In this document: positions 11,636 to 56,337 of the stretch, piece after piece | How positions within the stretch are numbered: the first letter of the stretch is position 1 | How the letters are laid out: each line of letters opens with the position of its first letter | Source: Hexactinellida sp. DTS-2022 | Lineage: Eukaryota > Porifera > Hexactinellida | DNA length: 64,000 bases | Direction of reading: 5' to 3' | Assembly (NCBI GenBank): GCA_028753945.1 | Contig: JAPNXP010000004.1 | Location: 3,348,001-3,412,000, forward strand | Notes under the pieces: model-generated | What the model was told of the DNA's origin: nothing | Seen by the model: the letters and a program-made list of their open reading frames with translations, nothing else | Databases searched by the model: none | Made by a program: the position numbers and the translations under genes

Positions 11636-11999
11636 TCAGGTCGCTTAACATCGATTTCGGGAAACGCTCGACAAAAGCACCAAATTTTTATACGTAATAT
11701 TTATGACCCCGGCATCAAATTTTTCCGCGGCCCCACGACGAACGGATACATTTTCGATGTTATCTTGGACTTTTAAAATTGCGGCTCTCTGCTAAATCGC
11801 CGGTATTACCCACAACGGGAACTTTCCAAAATCAACTCTGGTCGTGACCTTCGTTATACAAGGCCAATTCACGACTTTAAAAAAATGGACCCTGGATGTG
11901 TTCGAAGTCCATTCTGTTAGACTATTTAATTAAACTTTTTGTTACTCGAGTGATCATTTATTCTTTCAATTGATTTGTATAAATATCATTTGTGTTAAA

Positions 12000-14330
12000 T
12001 CAAATGAAAAAGTATAAGATACATACGAAATAACGTAAACTATATCTAAGCAATATCCTTTTATTTGATTTTAATTTCTTTAATTTCCTAATATTGTCAG
12101 TGTAGGATGCTTGAAGTGCGTTCATATTTTTTGTTTTATTCGATAAAAGACAGTTAGAAGTAGATGTAATCAATTTCCTTATAATGAACCATCCGATAGT
12201 TTCACAAGTTGGACATGTATTTCTCCAGTCTTCGCTTCTTTGGGTTTCTAATAACCGGATGGTCAATTCTACAAGTATTTTAAGAGAAGGTCCGATAAGA
12301 AAAGCATCCCACAACTCAGGAACTTGTTTATTTTCTTGAAGGTTGTCCATAGAATCAAAATAGATTCAATTACCGTATCAGAAGGCCATTTCAGTGACCC
12401 ATGATCAATTATTTCTACATGCTTGTATTTCGAGTCAGGAGGTTCTTCGATGTGTAGATCTTTGTCTTCTGTTATAAGAAGAAGCGACACTCAGACAGTT
12501 TTTGGACTTGATCAAATATTTATGCACAGCATAGCCAGCAATGAAAACTATAGACTGGAGAGAACTTATGTCAATCTCGATATCGTCAATATTCTGTATT
12601 TCCGATAGATAGTATTCGAGATCGATAGAACTGTCTGTCTGATAATCGAAGGATGAGAATGTTCCTAAAAATTATTTTAGTGAAAAGTGATCTATCGAAC
12701 GTTTTCTTGGTAGAAGTTTTATAATATTTGAAAGCTTGATTCGACGCTCAGTTTCTAGTATTTGAATAAGTGATATGATATTGTGCACCTGCCATCATTC
12801 TTTATAACCCAAAGTGATGTTCCAAGGGATCAGTCTGAAGGAAAGAAGAAAGAACAAAAGAAAAGCACAGTTTTGTGTGAGGTGGTTCACAATTTTTGGT
12901 AAAGCCTTACAAGAATGGCGTAGACTAGTAAATGTTTGGGCAGTTAATTTTCCTTTTTTCTCTGGATATCTTTCCATCGTCCAACCCAATTGACAATTCT
13001 ATCAAGGTAACAAAATCTCGGATCATTATTAACTAACGGGAGCGAGAGATCATCTTTTAATCGAATTCCTTTATTTGGGGTATTGACATTGAAGTTTTCC
13101 AAAGGTTGGAGATGATTGTAATTAATTCAGCAGTATCGGACTTAAATTCGGTACGCGAAGAGTTCTGGATGGTTAGTGCAGCAGCAGTTGATTCATTAAG
13201 AATACGCTGAGCTAAACTGACGTTTTGCCTCTCTAGATTTGATGGCCAACATGATTTGGCTGTAAGACGATGTTCTAGTTTTGCAACATAGTTCTGTTCA
13301 CTTCGAAATAGGAGGCGAATGTCTTCGAAAAGGGCTTTGTTAGTGCTATTAAAATCCTCAAAGTTTGGATACAGAAAAGTACAGTTATAATCAGTCTGAT
13401 TTAACTAGTTGTTTCGAATACTCTTTAAGATGTGTACAAAATCGAAGAGTAATACAATACATCGTTGTGAATTGAGAGGATGAGGGACTACAGTATCTAG
13501 TGTATTTGTTGGTGATAATAATTTGAAAAGAGATACATTCATCGGGTAATTATCTGTGCAAATGGCCTGAACCTTTAGATTTCAGTTTTCTATATCACCA
13601 ATAACTGTTTTAATGATAAGGAAAATTTCTTTGGCAGATGATTTTGAACAATAGTTGACCATTTTTTATATAGGCTTGAAACCATTATCGCGAAAACAGT
13701 TCTGGCAGGCTCATTTGATTGGATAGACGAACCGATTATCCTTCCACCTTTGTATGTGTAATCAGATTTAACATGGACTTCATCCATCTGAACAATAACG
13801 TTCCGCTCCATAGGATTAAATTCCAAGGTTGACTGTTTAAGATAACAAGCAAATTCACTGTCTAAACGAATGTTCGAATAGAGCCGTTGAAGAGTTGAAT
13901 GTTGGGGAATGAAACGTAGTCGAGGGATTGAAGATATCTGTAACATGATGGGGAGACCAACTGACACTTAAGCGCCATTACCAAAGTGATCAAATTATAT
14001 CTTCGATTATTTTTGGAAACAAGAATGTTCTCCAGTTGGTTAATAATGAATTGAAGGCGAGGTAATAATTTGGATTGATTAGTAGAGTCATTGACTGATT
14101 TGATCATAGGAATATGCTCAATATTATTCTCTTCCTCAATATTATAGGCTACAGCACGTAACTGATTGGTTGCATTACTAATCTGTTCTTTAATAGATTT
14201 GAAACCCAGTGATGATGGTTCTTCTACGTGTTCAAGTTTCTCAAACAAAACTTCTATCTGTCTAATATCGGTTATCGTACTTTGATCGAGCGAAATTTCA
14301 TTGGTATAAGTTTTGAGTAACCAACAACTA
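12000..14330 (-). pseudogene. P-element/THAP9-like transposase relic, minus strand
   Basis: This is a degenerate relative of the intact transposase at 28422-31448, collinear with most of it after the THAP domain. From the N-terminal side: VSKNNRRYNLITLVMALK at about 14010, the RNase-H core IVQMDEVHVKSDYTYKGGR at 13795-13735, CTDNYPMNVSLFKL near 13560-13510, CWPSNLERQNVSLAQRI at about 13245, KGKLTAQTFTSLRHSCKALP at 12950-12890, DHGSLKWPSDTVIES at 12400-12355, and a C-terminal block with NTCPTCETIGW and SNCLLSNKTKNM near 12120. Frameshifts and stops break it throughout, and the segment matching ALEHHFG is out of frame. No THAP domain is seen upstream on this strand, so the 5' end is missing. 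I could not identify terminal repeats. Confidence 0.87.
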
Positions 14331-15558
14331 ATATTTCAATGTCCCAGCTAATCAGCAACTTCATACATTTGGATACGAAATTCGTCGGAAAATTGCACAA
14401 AAGTTATTGATATTGATTAATTCATTAATCCAAACCTTAATTTGACTATATATTGACACTCATAAATGATTTATTAACTAATATGCACCAATCACAGCAC
14501 CCTTACATACAATTCGCCCCGTATAACGCTTCTTTGACACCTTTACCAACTCTGGGTTAATCCTAATAAAATATTTTAGTTTTTTCTTCAATATCACCAA
14601 TTGGAAGAATGAATTTGTCTATCAAAATCTTCTGTGTTGCACTCAGTAGTTTATCTATGAATTTCCGGCCCTACACTTAGTTATACTCATAGACCACTTT
14701 AATAAAGGACTGTAGGCTGCCAGCTCGGCTCCTGGAATTTGGGTCCATTGTGTACTTTTTGAAATCTCGTAATCCGCTAATGCTAGACACAGGAAATTTA
14801 TAATTATCATATTGGAAGTCATATATTTTTGGAGTTCATTGGTCATATTGCCTTATCTCAAATATTTGTGGAATGCGAGTTTTGCGGTTTTCACACCTTT
14901 TCCATATATAGTAATATTCTCAAATTCTAGGCTTCAGTTACAGTTAGACATAAGAAATGCATTATTGTCGTATAGGAAGTAATATGTGAGGAAGATATTG
15001 GCATTATTGGCATTATTGACTATCACTAATCTCTCTATTAATTACACAATTGTTCTTTTCTGTTAAATTTTAAACTTGTAGTCTCATTGTTTAACGAATA
15101 TTACAACTCAAAGTATGGTAAAATTTATTTTGTAACGAGTTAGAGAACTTAGAGTTCATATTTATGATATACATAAAGTCCAGTGTGATCATCATTCTGT
15201 TTGTTGTACACAACACATTATTTACAAAAACCAACCTACTATCTACAACTTCTTGTGAGAAGACATACATTGGGGGTTAGGGAGGGTTCCTGCTCACTTC
15301 TAGATGCGCTACTTAAAAGGATAAATTGAAGAATGTACAAATGATTTTGTTTACTCTTATTGAAAGTATAGTAATTGTAATAAGTCTATATTATATGAGA
15401 ACCAGATTGATTATTTAGCATTGATGCGTACATTTAGGAAATTATGTTAGACATTGATTTTACTAATTAGTTGAATTTATTTTGATTATTATTGTTCCGC
15501 TCTTTATATTAGTATTTTGTTTAGCTGTGTCTTAGAGACTGGTTACTTGAATACGAGG
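14331..15558. other. AT-rich stretch between two P-like relics
   Basis: I see no reliable coding or repeat signal. The minus frame at 14655-14846 is short and without motifs. Confidence 0.4.
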
Positions 15559-19089: not shown

Positions 19090-21780
19090 ATTGTTGGTAG
19101 TTAATACAGCTGAAGTCGTGTATGTATGCTCGAAGCATTTTAGAGAGGAAGATATCGAATACATATATGTATAGAGACCCGAATGGAGCCTGATGTTCTC
19201 GAGAGATGCCAATAAGTCGCCTAACCTGAAAGATGGAGCAGTGCCAGCTATACTACCAGGATTTCACTGCATTATTCATCTCACTCTACCAACAGACGCC
19301 GCCGTTTCTCTCGAGAATACAAGGATGACGAACTCCTCAATAAAGCGGTGACACCTAGTCTAAAGTCATAAGTTGAAGAAAATTAAAGATTTAAGATCCA
19401 AAGTTTCCAGGAGTTACAAGATAGGTTACCTTTTCTCTTTATACATAAAACATGGTCCTGATGAATGTATGTTCATTATTATGCCTCCTGGTTTTCTTAA
19501 TAAAATTGAAGGTTATTATAAAGGTGAAATTACTTCGTTTTATCAGCTCACTTTGAGTGATATTCGACAACTTGTATCTATCCTTGATGCAATTCCCAAT
19601 CCGCCACCATCTATAGACACTGAAAATGATCCCACTAGTTCTAATAATGCATCCCATATCGCTTCCGCAGACCGTCATCTCCAACAAATTATTAATATAT
19701 TCATTAAACCAAATCCGATGATGAACTGATTCCTAATTCAGAGGTTTCTAGAATCCAATTTATTATTTGCCATTGCCAACTTCAAATGAGTCTTGTTCCG
19801 AATAAGGCGGAGATATACCGTATTGGCCCAAATTTTATCTCCTAAACACATCCCAGTTCATATCATATGTATCATACCTGTATCTTCAGCGTATGTTCTG
19901 TATATCTCTTTCGCACCCCAGTATATTAAAACGTTGTATTCCTCCCCTGATCTTGAAAACGAGTTCATAAAATTTCTTAAACAGCCACACAAACTTTATA
20001 TCTCGAACAATGACATGTTATTTTCAAATTAATGAGATTCATGTCAATTCCGATATTTCATATAAAGGGGGTAACACTTTGTTCTAACCTTGATCATGGC
20101 CTACTTAATATACGGCTATATATGTCGCCGAGAAGGCCATAAAACAAAGGGCCAGTTTCTAATTTTCAAAATGGAGAATTGATCTTTATTCGAATAATTA
20201 GCAATGATAGAGCTGAAAGGGTATTATAACTATATAGGAATATGGTATCCAGGTATACATAGCACCCTCCAGAATTGTGATATGTCATCATCTTATGACG
20301 TTATGGTTATTTTGGTTGCGAATCATCAATAATACTTCAATAATCTTTGAGATAATGAGATAATTAACACTTAATTCATTATTAGGTAATGGGTAACTAT
20401 CTCAGAAATTATTGAAGTTAGGCATATAAAATGTATTATCGATGAATAGGAAGTTACTTATTCCGGACAGATCAGTACCAGTCTAGTTTACATAACATTC
20501 ATAGTTTTTGAGTTATGGCACATTTTAGGAAATATACATTTTACATGGCAACCGAGGAATGTGTCAACATTTCATTTATAATTTCGATATATTTTATTCT
20601 ACTCTTCTGGTTATAACCATGTTCCAATTTTGAACATTTATAAAGCGTTTTACTATGTTAAAAGTATGCTAGAAAAACAAGATGATTCGCAACCAAAATA
20701 ACCATAACGTCATCAGATGATGCATATCACAATTCTGGAGGGTGCTAGTATACCTGGATACCATATTCCTATATAGTTATAATACCCTTTCAGCTCTATC
20801 AATGCTAATTATTCGAATAAAGATCAATTCTCCATTTGAAAATTATAAACTGGCCTCTTTGTTTTATGGCCTTCTCGGCGACATATATAGCCGTACATTA
20901 AGTAGGCCATGCCTTGATCCAGATATTCCCACCAAGACTATTTTCGCTATTATGGTTTCCAGGTTGCATAAGAAATGGTCTTATATTGTTCGTCTTTTGC
21001 CATGTACTTCTCTAAAAGCTGAAAATTTATTCGAGACTATAAAATCTTGTAATTCGTGATGTCGAAGAATTTGGCTTATAAATTCAAATCATCTCTACGA
21101 CAACTATCCTCTTAGGGTAAAACTTTATAAATGTATTCCACTATTGGCAAACAGGGTGCAGAATTGCCACTTCCTTGTAATATCAATATAAATCTTTTCC
21201 TCGCGTTTGACTTTGACATATTCTCAAAGGTGTTCGAAATAATTGGTAATTCAACAATCTGATGGTAAACTGTTTTCTTATCCTGATTTGAATTGTATTT
21301 CTATTGACCAGTGTACCTATCCATTGACAAGATCTCCTTCTTTCCGTGACATCCGTATTCTACATAACTCCGAGAGAGATAGCTTGGCAAAACTCTCTCA
21401 ACGTTTGACAGCTAAATCTTGTTATCCATCCAGCCTTGAACGTCAGAATGTCAAGTTGGTTTTGAAAGTAGTTTATGAATCCACCATTACTGGTTTATCC
21501 ATACAGAATGAACATCGATCTCCCGCATTTAAACCCAACACTTCTGACTTTGTTGGGATTCTCCTATCTCTATGGAAAATCTTCAACTTCAACATGCCCT
21601 ATAAAGATGTTCGTTTGAACACGGACTACTATATTACCGGACGCAACAAAGCCAAACCACAGTCAAAAATGCATAGGCTTATTTATTTCTACATACTTGG
21701 TATTTAACACATATATTCGGCTAACGCATCCCTGGTCCAAAATCCACAAGTTACTCTTAGGCATTATGTATAGTAGGCTA
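19090..21780 (+). pseudogene. P-element/THAP9-like transposase relic split by a MITE
   Basis: The second half of a THAP domain is at 19109-19280 (VYVCSKHFREEDIEYI, later KDGAVPAILPGF). The helical region follows in the open frame 19373-19729. FRIRRRYTVLAQILSPK starts at 19793, and NEIHVNSDISYKGG, the first catalytic block, is at about 20033-20073. The MITE at 20095-20911 cuts in here. Beyond it the reading continues DPDIPTKTIFAIMVSRLHKK at 20928, and 21243-21707 holds LTAKSCYPSSLERQNVKL and later core sequence. Stops and shifts occur between blocks, and the protein ends well short of the full C-terminus. At 21728-21775 CCCTGGTCCAAAA and GGCATTATGTATAG resemble the right TIR of the intact element at 27900-32067, so this is a sister copy. 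Confidence 0.85.
20095..20911. mobile_element. P-like MITE (CATGGC ends), 817 bp, 7-bp TSD, nested
   Basis: The long inverted ends run about 230 bp. The left starts CATGGCCTACTTAATATACG, the right ends with its complement ATTAAGTAGGCCATG. The duplication ccttgat is at 20088-20094 and 20912-20918. Excising it joins the P-like transposase reading across GGNTL and DPDIPTKT, which lines up with the intact copy. It is related in sequence to 53946-54727. Confidence 0.88.
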
Positions 21781-27892: not shown

Positions 27893-28421
27893 GCTAAATC
27901 ATAGCATTCTATACATAGGGCAATGGCGCGCTTATAAATTTTTGGACCAGGGATTGGTTAGTTACTTAGATTTAGTAAAATATGTTTTTCCAATTTCTTC
28001 TTCGCTAATTGGAAATTTGGATATGTGATTCATTTACCCCACCCCTTATACCCTTTTAAAGCATCTTAAGACTATAATATTTCTGAATCCATCCTCGAAT
28101 GTCTCACATTTACGTTTTTATAGCTTTCTAATATTCCACTAATATTTCAGAAATTTATGCCAATACGATATAATAAGTTTAGTAATCATCCGTCTTGAGA
28201 TGTATATAGTACGATGTAAATGCCAAATAAATAAGGTCTATTTTTAGAGATACACAATCATTGATTCAATCAAATTGCACCTTTGAATTTGTTAAATTTT
28301 TATATCCACCCATAATTGTTGTATACAAAATTTATATGAATACCATAGAAGTTCACTTTTCAGTGTAACTTTCAATTTCCACTACCTACATCACCTACTA
28401 CCACTTATTTTGACTATTCGG

Positions 28422-31400
28422 ATGTCCTGTCTTGTCCCAGGCTGCAGGTCGAACTATTTAGGCGAAGAAACTACTTCAACTTTCAATTTTCCCAAAGATG
28501 AGCAATTACGCGAACAATGGTTCAGAGCCATTCCTAGACCAAGGAAGGATTATGAAGCCAACAAACACATGAAGGTATTCAATTGGAAATTTCACATCCT
28601 TAAATATACTCAATTTCATTTTTATATTTAGGTATGCATACACCATTTCAGAGAAGGAGACATCGAGAGATCACACCAATATTTTGATGGACAGCGAACT
28701 ATGACTGTTCCCCGCGATAGAGTGTCTCTAAAGAAAGGTGCGGTTCCAAGCATATTTCCTAACTGTCCTTCCTACCTATCTGATTTGAATTCAAAACCGA
28801 AGAGACTTTCAAAAGATGACAAGGAACGATTGATGATGGAAAGTGCCTACACTCAGAGCTTAGCTGATAACGAAGAAACAGTAGATAAGTTTCTTATTCA
28901 TTCATTTTCTGACCTTCTTTCTAAGTTGCATTTGATTGATCTCAGGAACGGTTGGATTTCTCATCATTCCGAGGACAATTCTTTGCACTTTTTAAAAATT
29001 CTTATTACTGATTCCGGACCTATAATTGAACGTTCAGTTTTAATTGACCATGATTTGTTTATCAAAGCATTTGGCATTAACAATATTCCGATTTGTATTT
29101 CAAGAATTTCAATTAATGACACCCGCCAAATTGAAAGTTCACTTTATGAGGTAGATAACTTTTCCACACCAACTCATAGTGAACACGCATCTGAACATTC
29201 GATAAACAATTATGTCAAATTAGCTATCAATGAGCTACAAAACGCAATTAACCTCGTTGAATGTGACACACTAGATCTAGACGTAACTAACAATCTATTC
29301 ACCTGTACTGAATCCATAAAAATTTTGTTGTATTTTATTGTAGGACAACTGACAAATTTGATCCATTCAAAAAATAACCGGCGGTATGATATATTAACTC
29401 AAGTATTTTCACTTAAAATTCACGGATTATCACCAGCATGTTATAGAAATATCCAGTCATCTAGTTGTTTAATTTTGCCACATGAGCGAAACTTGCTTCA
29501 TATTAAAAACACTCTGGGGATAGATGGTGACTATTTTCGAATTCTTAAGGAAATAACCTCTAAGTTTAGTGACAGGGAACGTCATGTGATACTTCAAATG
29601 GATGAAGTTCATATACGAAGTGATGTATCATATAAAGGAGGTAGGATTTTGGGCGCAATTGATAATCCTAGAGATCCTGCAACAACCGTCTTTTCGCTGA
29701 TGGTTTCAAGTTTAATGAGAAAGTTTTCAACCATCGTGCGCCTCATTCCTTTGGGTTCTTCTACTGCTGCTTATTTACATCCAATAATTACCAAAGCTAT
29801 ATTTGATATCGAGACTTGTGGTCTCTTTGTCGAAGCTATTTGTACTGACAACTATCCGTTAAATGTTAACCTTTATAAGTTATTTTCAGATGACGGGAAA
29901 ACATTACATCCTAAGGTTGTACATCCTTGTAATCCAGATCGTAATCTTGTATTATTTTTTGACATTGTTCATATTATCAAGTCAATTCGTAATAATTGGC
30001 TGAATTTAAAAGATTTTGAAAAGACTTTTATATATCCCAAGTTTGATGAATGTACAACTGAAACCTCTAAATCCCTAAATCTACCTTGCACTCAGTTAAG
30101 AATTTCTATACCTACTGCCAACATTATTTTGAATCCCAGCCAGCTGACGGGGTCTAGATATCCTACAATATGTTATGCAGCATTTGACGATCTTCGGACC
30201 CTGTTCAAAGCTGACAAATTTTCTATTATCAAGAGGGCCCCAAAATTAACATCAAAAGCATGTTGGCCATCTCAGTTAGAGCGACAGAATGTGAACTTGG
30301 CTTTGAGAATTTTTCATGAATCTACAGCTGCAGGTCTTTCTAGTTTCATTAACCATGCTAACATTGGTAACTCCCTTCAAACTGTTGATTTTCTTAACTT
30401 CATAAATCATATTTGGAGCATCTTCAATGTTAATTGGGTCGGGAAAGACATACGTTTCAATAATCCATATCTAGCCCCACTCCACTATAACGACGAAAGA
30501 TTAGTGTTTTTGGTAAATGTTGTTAAATGGCTAGATTGTTGGAGAGCTATTCCATCAACTAGGGGTAAGCTTACACCTCAAACGTTTACCAGTTTCAGAC
30601 ACACTTGTCTAGCTCTTCCATTCTTAATTAATAGATTAACCTTAGAATGTGGTTATGAATATTTGCTGACATCCCGAATACAAAACGACGCATTAGAACA
30701 TCACTTTGGACTTTATCGCCAAATGTCTGGGTCCCACTATAACATATCATATTGTCAAATTTTAGAAAGTGAGCGTAAACTTCAGTTATCTAACCTTCTT
30801 AAGTTTCTATTTGTTGAACAAGCTGGTACCGATACGATATGTATTAAAGAATATTTAAAAAGTTTTGCAGATGATAATGTCGAAGAAAGACATTCAGAAA
30901 TTGATTTAGAATATTTTACAGATGAGTTGCTTTACATTACTAACCCTATATTTGATAACTCTCAAATTGAATGCCTTAACTATATTTCCGGGTATGCAGT
31001 ATTTTCTTATTTTAAACAAACCTCTGAATGTTCAGTCTGCCATGATTTTTTGACTTCTCCAAAAGATATTCAAATTAATAACGATACAGGGTTTTCATTA
31101 ATTAATCTGCTCGATAGAGGTTCCCTTAAATATCCATCAGAAAATGTTTATCAATCTGTCGTAACAATGTACGAAATATTTATTAAGATCGATAATCATC
31201 CTAATTTAAGTCGTCGATTTTATGAGGGACCTTGCCGTAGAAAATTAGTCTACATTTCATTGCTCGAAATTGAAAGAAATTCCAGTGAAATATGGAGGGG
31301 GTGGTGTATATGTATGGCATCAAAATGGGATATTCTTAAGAAATTGTTAACAACAGTGGCTAATTGCATTTTATCTAAGAAAGTTAAAAATTTTAATAAC

Positions 31401-31448
31401 ATTGTAGTTGGTCGCGATAATTCAAAAGTTCAGAAATTTTCTTCCTAA
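28422..31448 (+). CDS. P-element/THAP9-like transposase, intact, one intron
   Basis: The predicted protein has 989 residues, from exons 28422-28574 and 28632-31448. The chosen start gives MSCLVPGC, the usual M-x-C THAP opening; an ATG four codons upstream (28410) is possible. The THAP zinc finger uses C3, C8, C53 and H56 (CIHHF), with FPKD, W33 and the AVP box (88-90). The RNase-H-like core carries QMDEVHIRSD (D375) and CTDNYPLNVN (D457). A downstream block, QNDALEHHFGLYRQMSG, has D737 and E740 as candidate third acids. The segment between (residues 460-730, with CWPSQLERQNVNLALRIF) occupies the place of the GTP-binding insertion in Drosophila P transposase, but I could not confirm nucleotide-binding motifs. 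The C-terminus has CSVCHDF and NLLDRGSLKYPS, conserved in the broken copies. It should cut and paste this element and possibly the related MITEs. Confidence 0.9.
28575..28631 (+). other. 57-bp GT-AG intron in the THAP transposase
   Basis: The boundaries are CATGAAG|GTATTCAATT and TTTATATTTAG|GTATGCATAC. Splicing is phase 0 and joins HMK to VCIHHF, completing the THAP zinc site. The intron is 19 codons long but ends in an in-frame TAG, so retention would truncate the protein inside the THAP domain. Confidence 0.85.
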
Positions 31449-31501
31449 TACTTCTTAACCTTCTAGAAATTCAACTAAAATTACTCCAGAAGTTTGCATC
31501 A

Positions 31502-31726
31502 TTACTATAACAACTAGACGAGGAGACGAGGAGCGGTGACACCAGCCAGTTAAGACGCAGCTCTCACAGATTTACTATAACAACTAGACGAGGAGACGAG
31601 GAGACGAGGAGACGAGGAGCGGTGACACCAACCAGTTAAGACGCAGCTCTCACAGATTTACTATAACAACTAGACGAGGAGACGAGGAGCGGTGACACCA
31701 ACCAGTTAATAACGCGGCTCTCACTG
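31502..31726. repeat. Tandem repeat, three units of about 70-86 bp
   Basis: The units start TTACTATAACAACTAGACG at 31502, 31572 and 31658. Each has GGTGACACCA(G/A)CCAGTTAA and GCTCTCAC. The second unit is longer because the decamer GACGAGGAGA is repeated four times instead of two. It lies inside the transposon, between the stop codon and the right TIR. Confidence 0.9.
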
Positions 31727-32074
31727 CTAGGCAAAGGAACGCTAATTTATATTTCAAGACAATATTACTTGTATATTTTACTACATACTACATCTTTGTT
31801 ACTACTTGTTTTATTATTATAGATATTTATTTTATTCTTCATTTCTTGTAAGTGTTTAGAAATACATTATACTGTCTCTTATTTGATTCTAAATAGTCTA
31901 AACTAATCGTATGCAATACTATGCATTAGAAACCTAGATATTATTATGGAATATTCAGCATAAACATTATAAAACCACAATAGTAATAATAGATTCTCTA
32001 AGTAACTAACCAATCCCTGGTCCAAAAATTTATAAGCGCGCCATTGCCTTATGTATAGAATGCTATGGCTAAAT

Positions 32075-53408: not shown

Positions 53409-53936
53409 TAATGAATTAGGTTGTAATACTCTTAGGTGGTAATACTCTTGAATAATTAAACTTTTTATAATTGTTGACGAGTTTGTTCCTTGTACATTAT
53501 ATATTAAGAAAAATAATCTTATAGTTTTTCATGTAGAAGCCAATTTGCTATTTGAATATCTTATATTACTCTATACCATAGCCTACTATACTCAGGCCTG
53601 ACAATAGAATACAAAATGTTGACCAAGGATGGAAAAGAAGTCATTGGCCATAATTTCCCATTTTTTATTGCAAAGTTTAATTTATTTTCCTCTCCATTTT
53701 TATCATTATGGTTGAGAATTAATGACTACAAATATTTTAGTGCACCCATAATCTTGATATTCTTGTCAATAATGTAGTCAAATCATGTCCTATTTCTTTA
53801 TTTCTATGCCAATTAGACTTGAATCTGTTTTTCTAATTGTTAATTTATGTCCCTTATTCAATAACTATATACTAATAGTAACTACGTTCTGTAATTAGCC
53901 AATTTATCACATTATTTTATTGCTAGCTGCTTGACT
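53409..53936. other. AT-rich stretch, no recognised feature
   Basis: Lies upstream of the THAP relic. I looked for the missing left TIR of that relic and did not find it. Confidence 0.4.
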
Positions 53937-56337
53937 ATGCCGAACCATGTCTTACTATATATATACGGCTGTGTATGTTCCCGACTTGGCCTTCAAACAA
54001 GAAGGCCAGTTTTAATTTAATTCAAAGCTAAACATGCCTTCTATTGTGGTTTATTGGATAGTATATGGGGTAATCAACCAATGTGAATCCATTGGAACCA
54101 CTTTTGAGAATTTCAGATTTGTGGTTAAGCTATTTAGGCACCATTTAATGATGACGGTAACAATTTTTGGTAAAATGAAAAAAAATTCAAATATCATAAA
54201 TTTCAGTTACTTCCTACTTTCTAATAATTTTGTAATAGGAATACTAAAATAGGGATATATTTCATACCCCAAAGGCTACTAAATCACAAAATGGCCACAT
54301 TATAAATTTTTTAAATTATTAAGCAACCACATGCTAAAATACAAGTATTATCCGAATTGCAACTTACTATTTTCGTCAATTAAACGTATATAATTGCTGG
54401 TTTATTTATTTTCATTCTCATTGTATATTCGGAAAATGTATTCTAAGTATATTAGCAAATTATTTTCATTTTCTTGTTTCTTTAGACTCGAATTGTCTAT
54501 TTTTGTATATTTGTGGTGTCATCATTAAATGGCGCATAAATAGCTTGGCCACAAATCTGAGATTCTCAAAAGTGGTTCCAATGGACTCACAATGGTTGAT
54601 TACCCTATATACTATCCAATAAACCACAATAGAAGGCATGATTTAGCTTTGAATGAAATTTAAAACTGGCCTTCTTGTTTGAAGGCCAAGTCGGGAACAT
54701 ACACAGCCGTATATATAGTAAGCCATGGCCGAACAAGTGTTCTGCACCGAATTGTACGAGTAATTATTACCCTAGTAGAGATCCTTTTGTTCCAGTGTTT
54801 ACTTCCTTCCAATCCCCCTGAATTACGCCACGAGTGGATAAAAGCTCTTCACCGAGAGAACGTAACTGACCTTAAACATATATTCGTTTGTGTTAACCAT
54901 TTCCGTGCATATGAAGTACCGAATCCTGATGGCACATTTCAAGAAATACCTCGAGGTCATTCCAAATTCCGCACTGGGGCTGTCCATCTATCCTACCTGG
55001 TTGCCCTTCTTACTATTCACCACCAGTTCCTATGCATCGTTTATCCCTCGAGGCTAAGGAGGCAGAACAATTTACGAAGGTAATACAACTTAGCCGCACT
55101 TCACACATGGAAGACACAGAAAGAAATAGTGTTAAAACTTTGATTGAATTGAAACTGAAGTTATCTACACAAAATATTCCTTCTAATTGGTTATCTTGGT
55201 GTCCAACTTATGATGAACTCCATTTCATATCACTTTCTAAAACACATCGCCAAATTTCAGTCAGTTCTTCTTTCACTATCGATTCATGTCTAAATCTAAC
55301 AGCATACCATGGTGAAGAACCTGTAACACTATCCTTAACCGCGATAAATGACATAAGACAAATTGAACTTCTACTCTGTGAAATTTTTAATGAATCTAAA
55401 GTTCTCTCTTCCTTGCACATTACGAAAGCTTGCAAATACATTAACAAAGCTATTATTAAGCTTGAAGAGGGTATCTCAGGATCTTTTGACAAAAATTATA
55501 CTTCCAATGATACTTACACGCTAGCTCGACTCCAGTTTATCGTATGTCAAGTCGAAAATGCAACTATACCAAAAACCAAAGAAGATACAACATCCTTACT
55601 CAAGTTTTGGCGCTGAAATCCCATATCATATCTGCTAGTTGATATAAGTATCTACAATCTCTCGAATGTTTAGCTCTCCCTCATTTCCATACACTTGAGA
55701 AACTGTATTCCTCAATTGGGTTAGAGAGTGACTACATAAGTTACCTAAATTAGGCAACTGCAAACTTTTCTCCCCAAGAGAGAAATCTAATCGTTCAAAT
55801 GGACGAAATTCACGTAACATCCGATGTTTCCTACAAGGGTGGGCGAATCATTGGTTTGTGTGTTAACCCTGAAAATCCCATTAGAACGGTTTTTGCGTTA
55901 ATGGCTTCTAGTTTACACAAAAAATGGTCAACTGTTGTACGTTTAGTCCCACTCTCTACAACTAGTGCTAGAGATATTTATCCCATCATTGTGCAGGTAA
56001 TTGCTGACATTGAACGTTGTGGACTTTCAGTTCAGGTCTTATGCACAGACAACTATCCCTAAATGTATCTCTTTTTAAGTTATTCTCTTCGGATCAGAAA
56101 AAACCTCAAAAACCTCGCGCAATTCTAATAGAATTGTCAATTAGAACCGTTGAAGATACCTCGAGCGAAACATGGCGTAACGGATGCTTGCTTTGCAATT
56201 CTGATGTTTGGGAAGTGTTACGGAAATTAGTTTCAGTGGCTTCAAACTGCCTTATCTCTAACTTTGTGAAGAATTTTAACTCACAAGTAGCTTCACGAGA
56301 AGATAGCCGTGAATTAAAGAAGTTTAAAGTTCAATAA
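53937..56337 (+). pseudogene. P-like THAP transposase, split at its start codon and internally deleted
   Basis: ATGCCGAAC at 53937-53945 is the start (MPN), interrupted by the MITE 53946-54727. Reading resumes through the repeated gccgaac as NKCSAPNCTSNYYPS, a THAP opening. After a one-base shift come ELRHEWIKALHRENVTDL and VCVNHF (THAP close), and GAV near 54980. The next frame is open at 55032-55616 (INDIRQIELLLCEI). The core is at 55799-56062, with QMDEIHVTSDVSYKGGR and CTDNYP. Just past SLFKLFSSDQK the sequence jumps to IELSIRTVEDTSSETWRNG, which in the intact copy lies some 450 residues further on. So the middle of the protein, including the region of the third acidic residue, is deleted. 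The C-terminus (VASNCLISNFVKNFN) is complete to the stop. Confidence 0.88.
53946..54727. mobile_element. P-like MITE (CATG ends), 782 bp, 7-bp TSD
   Basis: The inverted arms are about 210 bp: the left begins CATGTCTTACTATATATATA, the right ends TATATATAGTAAGCCATG. The target duplication gccgaac is at 53939-53945 and 54728-54734. Both arms contain GGCCTTCAAACAAGAAGGCC. It is a relative of 20095-20911 and of the single arm at 57555-57770. The short frame 54034-54252 is chance. Confidence 0.92.

Follow-up and report, generated by a model that had tools for sequence, protein, structure and literature searches.

The locus analysed here raises the question of whether a complete-looking P-like transposon, residing in a 64-kb window (the whole stretch of DNA that was analysed), is a recently mobile element or merely a remnant of past transposition. 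The element, hereafter W, belongs to the P superfamily and occupies 4,168 bp (positions 27900-32067 of the window). Judging from its structure and from its copies, we consider it very probable that W is an autonomous-looking, recently mobile cut-and-paste transposon, representing a subgroup with 7-bp target site duplications (TSDs) and long symmetric ends. An earlier, sequence-only reading had described terminal inverted repeats (TIRs) of 71 bp with one mismatch and a perfect 7-bp flanking duplication, and both were recovered on re-examination: positions 27900-27970 and 31997-32067 pair at 70 of 71 sites, and GCTAAAT is present on both sides, while none of the other lengths tried for the duplication of W (6, 8 and 9 bp) fits. 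The element and its flanks comprise the following features:

27893..27899, no strand: left target site duplication GCTAAAT, exactly 7 bp
27900..27970, plus strand: 5' TIR, 71 bp, with the tip CATAGCATTC, 70/71 matched
27946..27954, plus strand: ACCAGGGAT at 47 bp from the 5' tip, a putative THAP site predicted to be bound by the transposase
28422..28574, plus strand: exon 1 (153 bp, by conceptual splicing), codons 1-51, first half of the THAP domain
28575..28631, plus strand: GT...AG intron of 57 bp within the THAP codons, predicted to be spliced
28632..31448, plus strand: exon 2 (2,817 bp), codons 52-989 and the stop codon
29517..29882, plus strand: N-terminal part of the RNase H domain (PF21787), amino acids 347-468, with D375 and D457 (E 1.4e-12, above the Pfam cut-off)
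30180..30431, plus strand: candidate GTP-binding insertion domain (PF21788), amino acids 568-651 (24.2 bits, slightly below the cut-off of 24.8)
30696..30698, plus strand: codon of E740, the third catalytic residue, aligned to E531 of 6p5a
31508..31735, plus strand: 3' subterminal G+C-rich minisatellite, three unit cores in W
31997..32067, minus strand: 3' TIR, 71 bp, pairing with the 5' repeat (99% complementary)
32013..32021, minus strand: ACCAGGGAT at 47 bp from the 3' tip, a putative THAP site predicted to be bound by the transposase
32068..32074, strand not assigned: right target site duplication GCTAAAT, exactly 7 bp

The genome searched comprises 112.4 Mb in 18 contigs, with a G+C content of 38.4% over 20 sampled stretches (4,000 bases). 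The 32-bp tip of the TIR occurs in it 117 times at up to two mismatches, compared with zero occurrences of the reversed control pattern. No known RNA families were detected in the window at gathering thresholds. Among the other copies with a fetched 3' end, the minisatellite has between 1 and 10 unit cores, and this variation accounts for much of the difference in length between near-identical copies (e.g. between W and L011, C7:1843481-1848142).

Conceptual splicing of the two exons yields a protein of 989 amino acids followed by a stop codon, whereas retention of the intron would end the product after 69 amino acids, at the terminal TAG of the intron itself. We infer that the intron is spliced from the continuity of the THAP domain and from the fact that families F2, F3 and F7 also have an intron at this position; the remaining families are uninterrupted there. 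The THAP domain (PF05485) spans amino acids 3-93 of the spliced protein (E 1.2e-16, above the Pfam cut-off). A profile built from 11 such proteins of this genome matched the Drosophila P transposase 6p5a with an E value of 1.6e-23, and the alignment passes through the region of the GTP-binding insertion. Residues D230, D303 and E531 of 6p5a, which we take to be the catalytic residues of the fly P transposase, align to D375, D457 and E740 of W, and the three DDE positions are invariant in all 11 families. The equivalents named for zebrafish THAP9 agree with this assignment in the available part of PMC10983969. W also carries the D(2)H motif (D495-x2-H498). The 989-codon THAP transposase with one short intron and the P-like identity of the element, both proposed beforehand from the sequence, are thus upheld by the Pfam matches to THAP and RNase H and by the aligned P-type DDE residues, and the junction 28574/28632 was placed correctly.

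DNA searches with the two ends of W identified at least 44 and at least 52 matching stretches, and 21 loci (W and 20 further fetched loci) were compared. Perfect 7-bp TSDs flank 12 of the 21, three more show duplications matching at 6 of 7 positions, and an 8-bp duplication was found in none of the 21. Among the remaining loci, TSDs are exchanged between L018 and L019, none was seen at the ends set for L023, and a single end was fetched for L026-L028. The coding region was aligned for ten copies, the other 11 being judged by their longest frame (at most 360 amino acids). Among the ten, three (W, L011 and L016) have an uninterrupted frame of 989 codons, L012 stops after 956 codons and L013 after 981, and the other five are broken; in total, frames are broken or incomplete in 18 of the 21 loci. 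With the minisatellite set aside, 17 of 3,940 positions separate W from L011 (0.43%); its divergence from L009, L010, L012 and L013 is 0.53-0.99%, and that from L016 is 2.03%. A search for further near-identical copies, suggested as a check by the sequence-only reading, was therefore productive (five other loci at 0.43-0.99% from W). The recent insertion postulated there is corroborated by these copies, which have their own TSDs, and by the 70/71 match between the TIRs. In pairwise comparisons of W, L011 and L016 the dN/dS ratios are 0.22, 0.31 and 0.30, and amino acid changes fall below expectation in all three pairs (binomial p 0.025, 1.2e-4 and 1.3e-4, with site numbers entered by hand). 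Ratios near 1 were obtained against some of the broken copies (1.10 for W and L010, 0.81 for W and L017). This pattern fits a lineage that has been kept functional and has given rise to dying side branches. In L016, a 264-bp insertion with the ends ATACCGTAT and ATACGGTAT lies inside the transposase intron, and its 989 codons are still open.

Another phenomenon observed among the copies was connected with two opposed members of the W family, L018 (C2:3565039-3571329) and L019 (C2:3514639-3519338), whose TSDs, GTATAAC and GATGAAT, are swapped. Such an exchange would be the signature of a 45.7-kb inversion between them, generated by ectopic recombination or by aberrant transposition. Alternatively, it may reflect a misassembly across the repeat, given that the two copies are identical over 2,757 bp.

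Elements of W type are accompanied by short non-autonomous relatives, the W tip being common to MITEs of several subtypes. Ten short elements with this tip had both ends read, and all ten are flanked by 7-bp TSDs, although the boundary search accepted exact 7- or 8-bp duplications and 9-bp TSDs were invisible to it. In their terminal 56-65 bp, 84-89% of positions match W. Their W-like tips and this terminal match indicate that they are probably mobilised by the W transposase or by that of a close relative sharing the tip, for instance F7.

The sharing of ends has consequences for W itself. The tip and the site recur in at least one other family, F7 (L046), whose tip, CATAGCATTCTATACATAAGGCAATGGC, is the same 27-bp tip as in W, with ACCAGGGAT at the same distance, so that W copies might be moved by another transposase. 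W could then be intact in structure while its own protein is idle, the movement being provided in trans by a related family such as F7, whose protein is 55% identical to that of W; the MITEs bearing the same tip speak in the same direction. We regard this as improbable, as all 989 codons remain open in three copies, whose differences are mainly synonymous, which is not expected of idle passengers. Considerably less probable is the idea that W is a fixed dead remnant whose copies look young through gene conversion. Conversion can indeed lower divergence, and most copies are broken, but the near-identical ones are found at separate sites and are each flanked by a perfect 7-bp TSD of their own, and the two TIRs of W, L009, L010, L012 and L013 have no more than one mismatch in 71 positions. 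The fixed-remnant reading was rejected on the grounds of these loci, which are less than 1% divergent and have individual TSDs. The domain order, which is as in THAP9 (available parts of PMC10983969 and PMC7776569), could also point to a THAP9-like single-copy host gene and to no transposon at all; this was ruled out by the copy number and by the TIRs and TSDs present at both ends of each structurally complete copy, and we assign it a negligible probability.

The preferred reading, that of a recently mobile and probably autonomous P-type transposon, leads to the following predicted course of transposition. The pre-mRNA of W would be spliced once inside the THAP codons to give the 989-amino-acid transposase, the THAP domain of which would bind the ACCAKGGAT block located 47 bp inside each tip. 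The two ends would then be paired by the transposase, and its DDE RNase H domain would cut at CATAGC and join the ends 7 bp apart at a palindrome resembling GYTNARC. The 69-amino-acid product made when the intron is kept, containing half a THAP domain, could limit transposase output.

We also found that W is one of many P-like elements in its genome. The search for P-type RNase H domains gave 928 candidates, of which 150 were scored and all 150 exceeded the cut-off; 40 of these 150 (counted from the result table) lie in stop-to-stop frames of at least 900 amino acids, a count that includes some duplicates of one another (L046/L047 and the palindrome in L038). For THAP there were 1,052 candidates, and again 150 of the 150 scored were above the cut-off. 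The sequence-only reading had held intact autonomous P elements outside flies to be uncommon, which misdescribes a genome so rich in long P-type frames. Twenty loci were fetched. Two fetched stretches that are arbitrary places, L085 and L086, were left out. Copies more than 99% identical exist in several families (L034/L035, one mismatch in 3,391 bp; L042/L043, three in 3,928 bp). In the tree, W, F2, F3 and F7 constitute one clade with 100/100 support. Viral or prokaryotic relatives were sought in IMG/VR and GTDB contigs and none was confirmed there. In one F3 element, L041 (C7:1575000-1582000), the THAP intron can be read without a stop, giving a single frame of 1,021 amino acids, in contrast to the W intron with its terminal TAG. 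Locus L038 (C1:15251000-15260999) contains 9,638 bp identical to their own reverse complement, with two opposed F2 copies, and this palindrome is either real or an assembly artefact.

The comparison of families revealed that the length of the target duplication is not uniform. Thirty perfect 7-bp TSDs (12 from W copies, eight from other families and ten from short elements) gave the consensus GYTNARC, a palindrome with a free centre; its single positions have p values of 6e-5 to 8e-7 against backgrounds that were assumed and entered by hand. Left out of this set were L014, L017, L025 and L023 (imperfect), L018 and L019 (exchanged), L038 (8 bp) and the MITE at 20095-20911 of the window; in L045 a TSD was not found. 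The 8-bp duplication of L038, a member of the 7-bp group, has a counterpart in the few Galileo copies with TSDs of this length described in part of PMC4168063. A sister group with the tips CACAG(A/C)CTACGT has perfect 9-bp TSDs, found through comparison of copies, in 14 of 17 elements, the other three having one duplication matching at 8 of 9 positions, one of 8 bp and one matching at 6 of 9. In the tree, on which TSD lengths were read in families other than F7 and L037, the three 9-bp families and the long-branched L048 are separated from the seven others with a split support of 96/96. The proteins of the 9-bp clade contain 13-18 additional residues shortly after the first catalytic aspartate. 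A 9-bp TSD for the P superfamily was not found in a limited search of open-licence literature.

The ends differ between these groups as well. A scan of 12 elements on both strands (69,906 bases) gave 22 occurrences of the motif AC[CA]A[TG]GGA[TC], compared with 1.64 in shuffles, the block ACCAKGGAT having been derived from the same elements on which the occurrences were counted. It is present once near each end, and nowhere else, in 11 of the 12 elements; F6 (L048) is without it. The start of the site lies 47 bp from both tips in W, F4, F5 and three MITEs, 49 bp in F2 and 48 bp in F3. Among the 21 loci of the W family, the arrangement 47/47 was found in 11, one end is shifted by 1-4 bp in four, a single end was available for three, and in L017, L019 and L024, with both ends read, it is missing at one or both. 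In the 9-bp clade, by comparison, it starts 47 bp from the 5' tip and 37 or 38 bp from the 3' tip (7/7). By analogy with the fly P transposase, which binds an internal site at each end, the ACCAKGGAT block would be the THAP site. The motif alone is not specific, as only three of its 13 matches in the window are at P-type ends and ten lie elsewhere.

The pattern CATAGC-N(25-55)-ACCAKGGAT occurs 1,390 times in the whole genome (5 times for the reversed control), with 454 gaps of 28-33 and 862 of 38-43, i.e. 1,316 of the 1,390 in 12 of 31 possible gaps; these counts are wider in coverage, yet they are not independent of the families that supplied the motif, and the copies are related. Within the first 100 places listed, all in contig C1, site starts peak at 37 and 47-48, with none at 41, 42, 44 or 45, and for opposed pairs within 11 kb the two spacings agree to within 3 bp in 21 of 28 cases, including one of 39/39. 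Of the other seven pairs, three combine matching tips with clearly unequal spacings (50/40, 38/47 and 38/48). The two spacing classes are one helical turn (about 10 bp) apart, which suggests a phase requirement. We tentatively propose, at slightly less than even confidence, that the P superfamily has split within this one genome into end architectures obeying a helical-phase rule (a site about 37 or 47 bp from the tip, in the combinations long/long, long/short and perhaps short/short), with transposases that have diverged in stagger (7 bp in the W clade, 9 bp in the sister clade with its 13-18-residue insertion). If so, the 9/21 asymmetry of the fly P element would be one of several solutions and no requirement. 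The association of asymmetry with TSD length comes from a single clade and could be coincidental. Alternatively, the block might have been kept by shared descent alone, in two old lineages, with no functional helical phase. The relatedness of the families, the non-independence of the counts, a motif read off the same families and shifted sites in some old copies (43 in L021) are in favour of this explanation, which we nevertheless find rather unlikely: the site keeps to two narrow classes despite wide variation in the intervening sequence, and both classes occur within single elements.

The position of W among known P-type systems can be defined from descriptions of four of them. Like the P element of Drosophila melanogaster, W has a THAP domain and an RNase H domain (with a candidate GTP-binding insertion in W), aligned catalytic residues, and an internal site (putative in W) about 40-55 bp inside each end. 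According to the available part of PMC7776569, THAP domains are restricted to animals, from which it follows that W resides in the genome of an animal. By the same source, fly P has 31-bp TIRs, 8-bp TSDs, a regulated third intron and, at each end, an internal 10-bp transposase site located 9 and 21 bp from the TIR, an arrangement that has been compared with the 12/23 recombination signals of V(D)J. W, unlike fly P, has 71-bp TIRs and a single intron inside the THAP codons; it departs from the canonical element in its TSD of 7 bp (not 8) and in the equal spacing of its putative sites (47 and 47). Unequal spacing is a trait that the 9-bp clade, but not the W clade, has in common with fly P. Galileo of Drosophila shares with W, by description and not by sequence, 7-bp TSDs with a palindromic consensus (GTANTAC in Galileo), a THAP transposase of the 905-amino-acid class, and inversions with exchanged TSDs, of which the W family has a possible case (parts of PMC4168063 and PMC2775673). 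Its TIRs are much longer and variable, and D. willistoni yielded no functional copy (part of PMC4168063). The P families and P-MITEs of Anopheles gambiae are similar in that several diverged families and MITEs with common ends coexist in one genome, but they have 27-31-bp TIRs and 8-bp TSDs, with nine subfamilies making up 0.49% of the genome (part of PMC1562414). In zebrafish, THAP9 and Pdre2 provide an active non-insect P-type transposase and its elements; Pdre2 differs from W in its 13-bp TIRs, 8-bp TSDs and one full-length copy (part of PMC10983969).

W is thus an ordinary-looking but intact and young P-type transposon, which is not rare in its own genome. It is the setting that is of interest: a single genome contains dozens of long open frames for P-type transposases, and its elements vary naturally in two respects in which the fly element that has been studied is fixed, namely the stagger (7 versus 9 bp) and the equal or unequal spacing of sites. 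Two open questions, what determines the TSD length and whether pairing requires unequal ends, become comparisons among natural sequences, and the variation of ends among the relatives of W could help explain DNA recognition and cutting by P-type transposons.

The window itself contains at least five P-type elements. The sequence-only reading had considered all its other large elements broken, and as far as the P-like ones were checked this held for three relics of other families, at 11843-14335 (an F5-like end and frame), 21243-21736 and 53577-55616 (two F4-like ends and frames), which have short frames at 13862-14335, 21243-21707 and 54930-55616, respectively. A short non-autonomous element of 817 bp at 20095-20911, however, keeps both of its F6-type ends (CATGGCCTAC) and a perfect 7-bp TSD, CCTTGAT.
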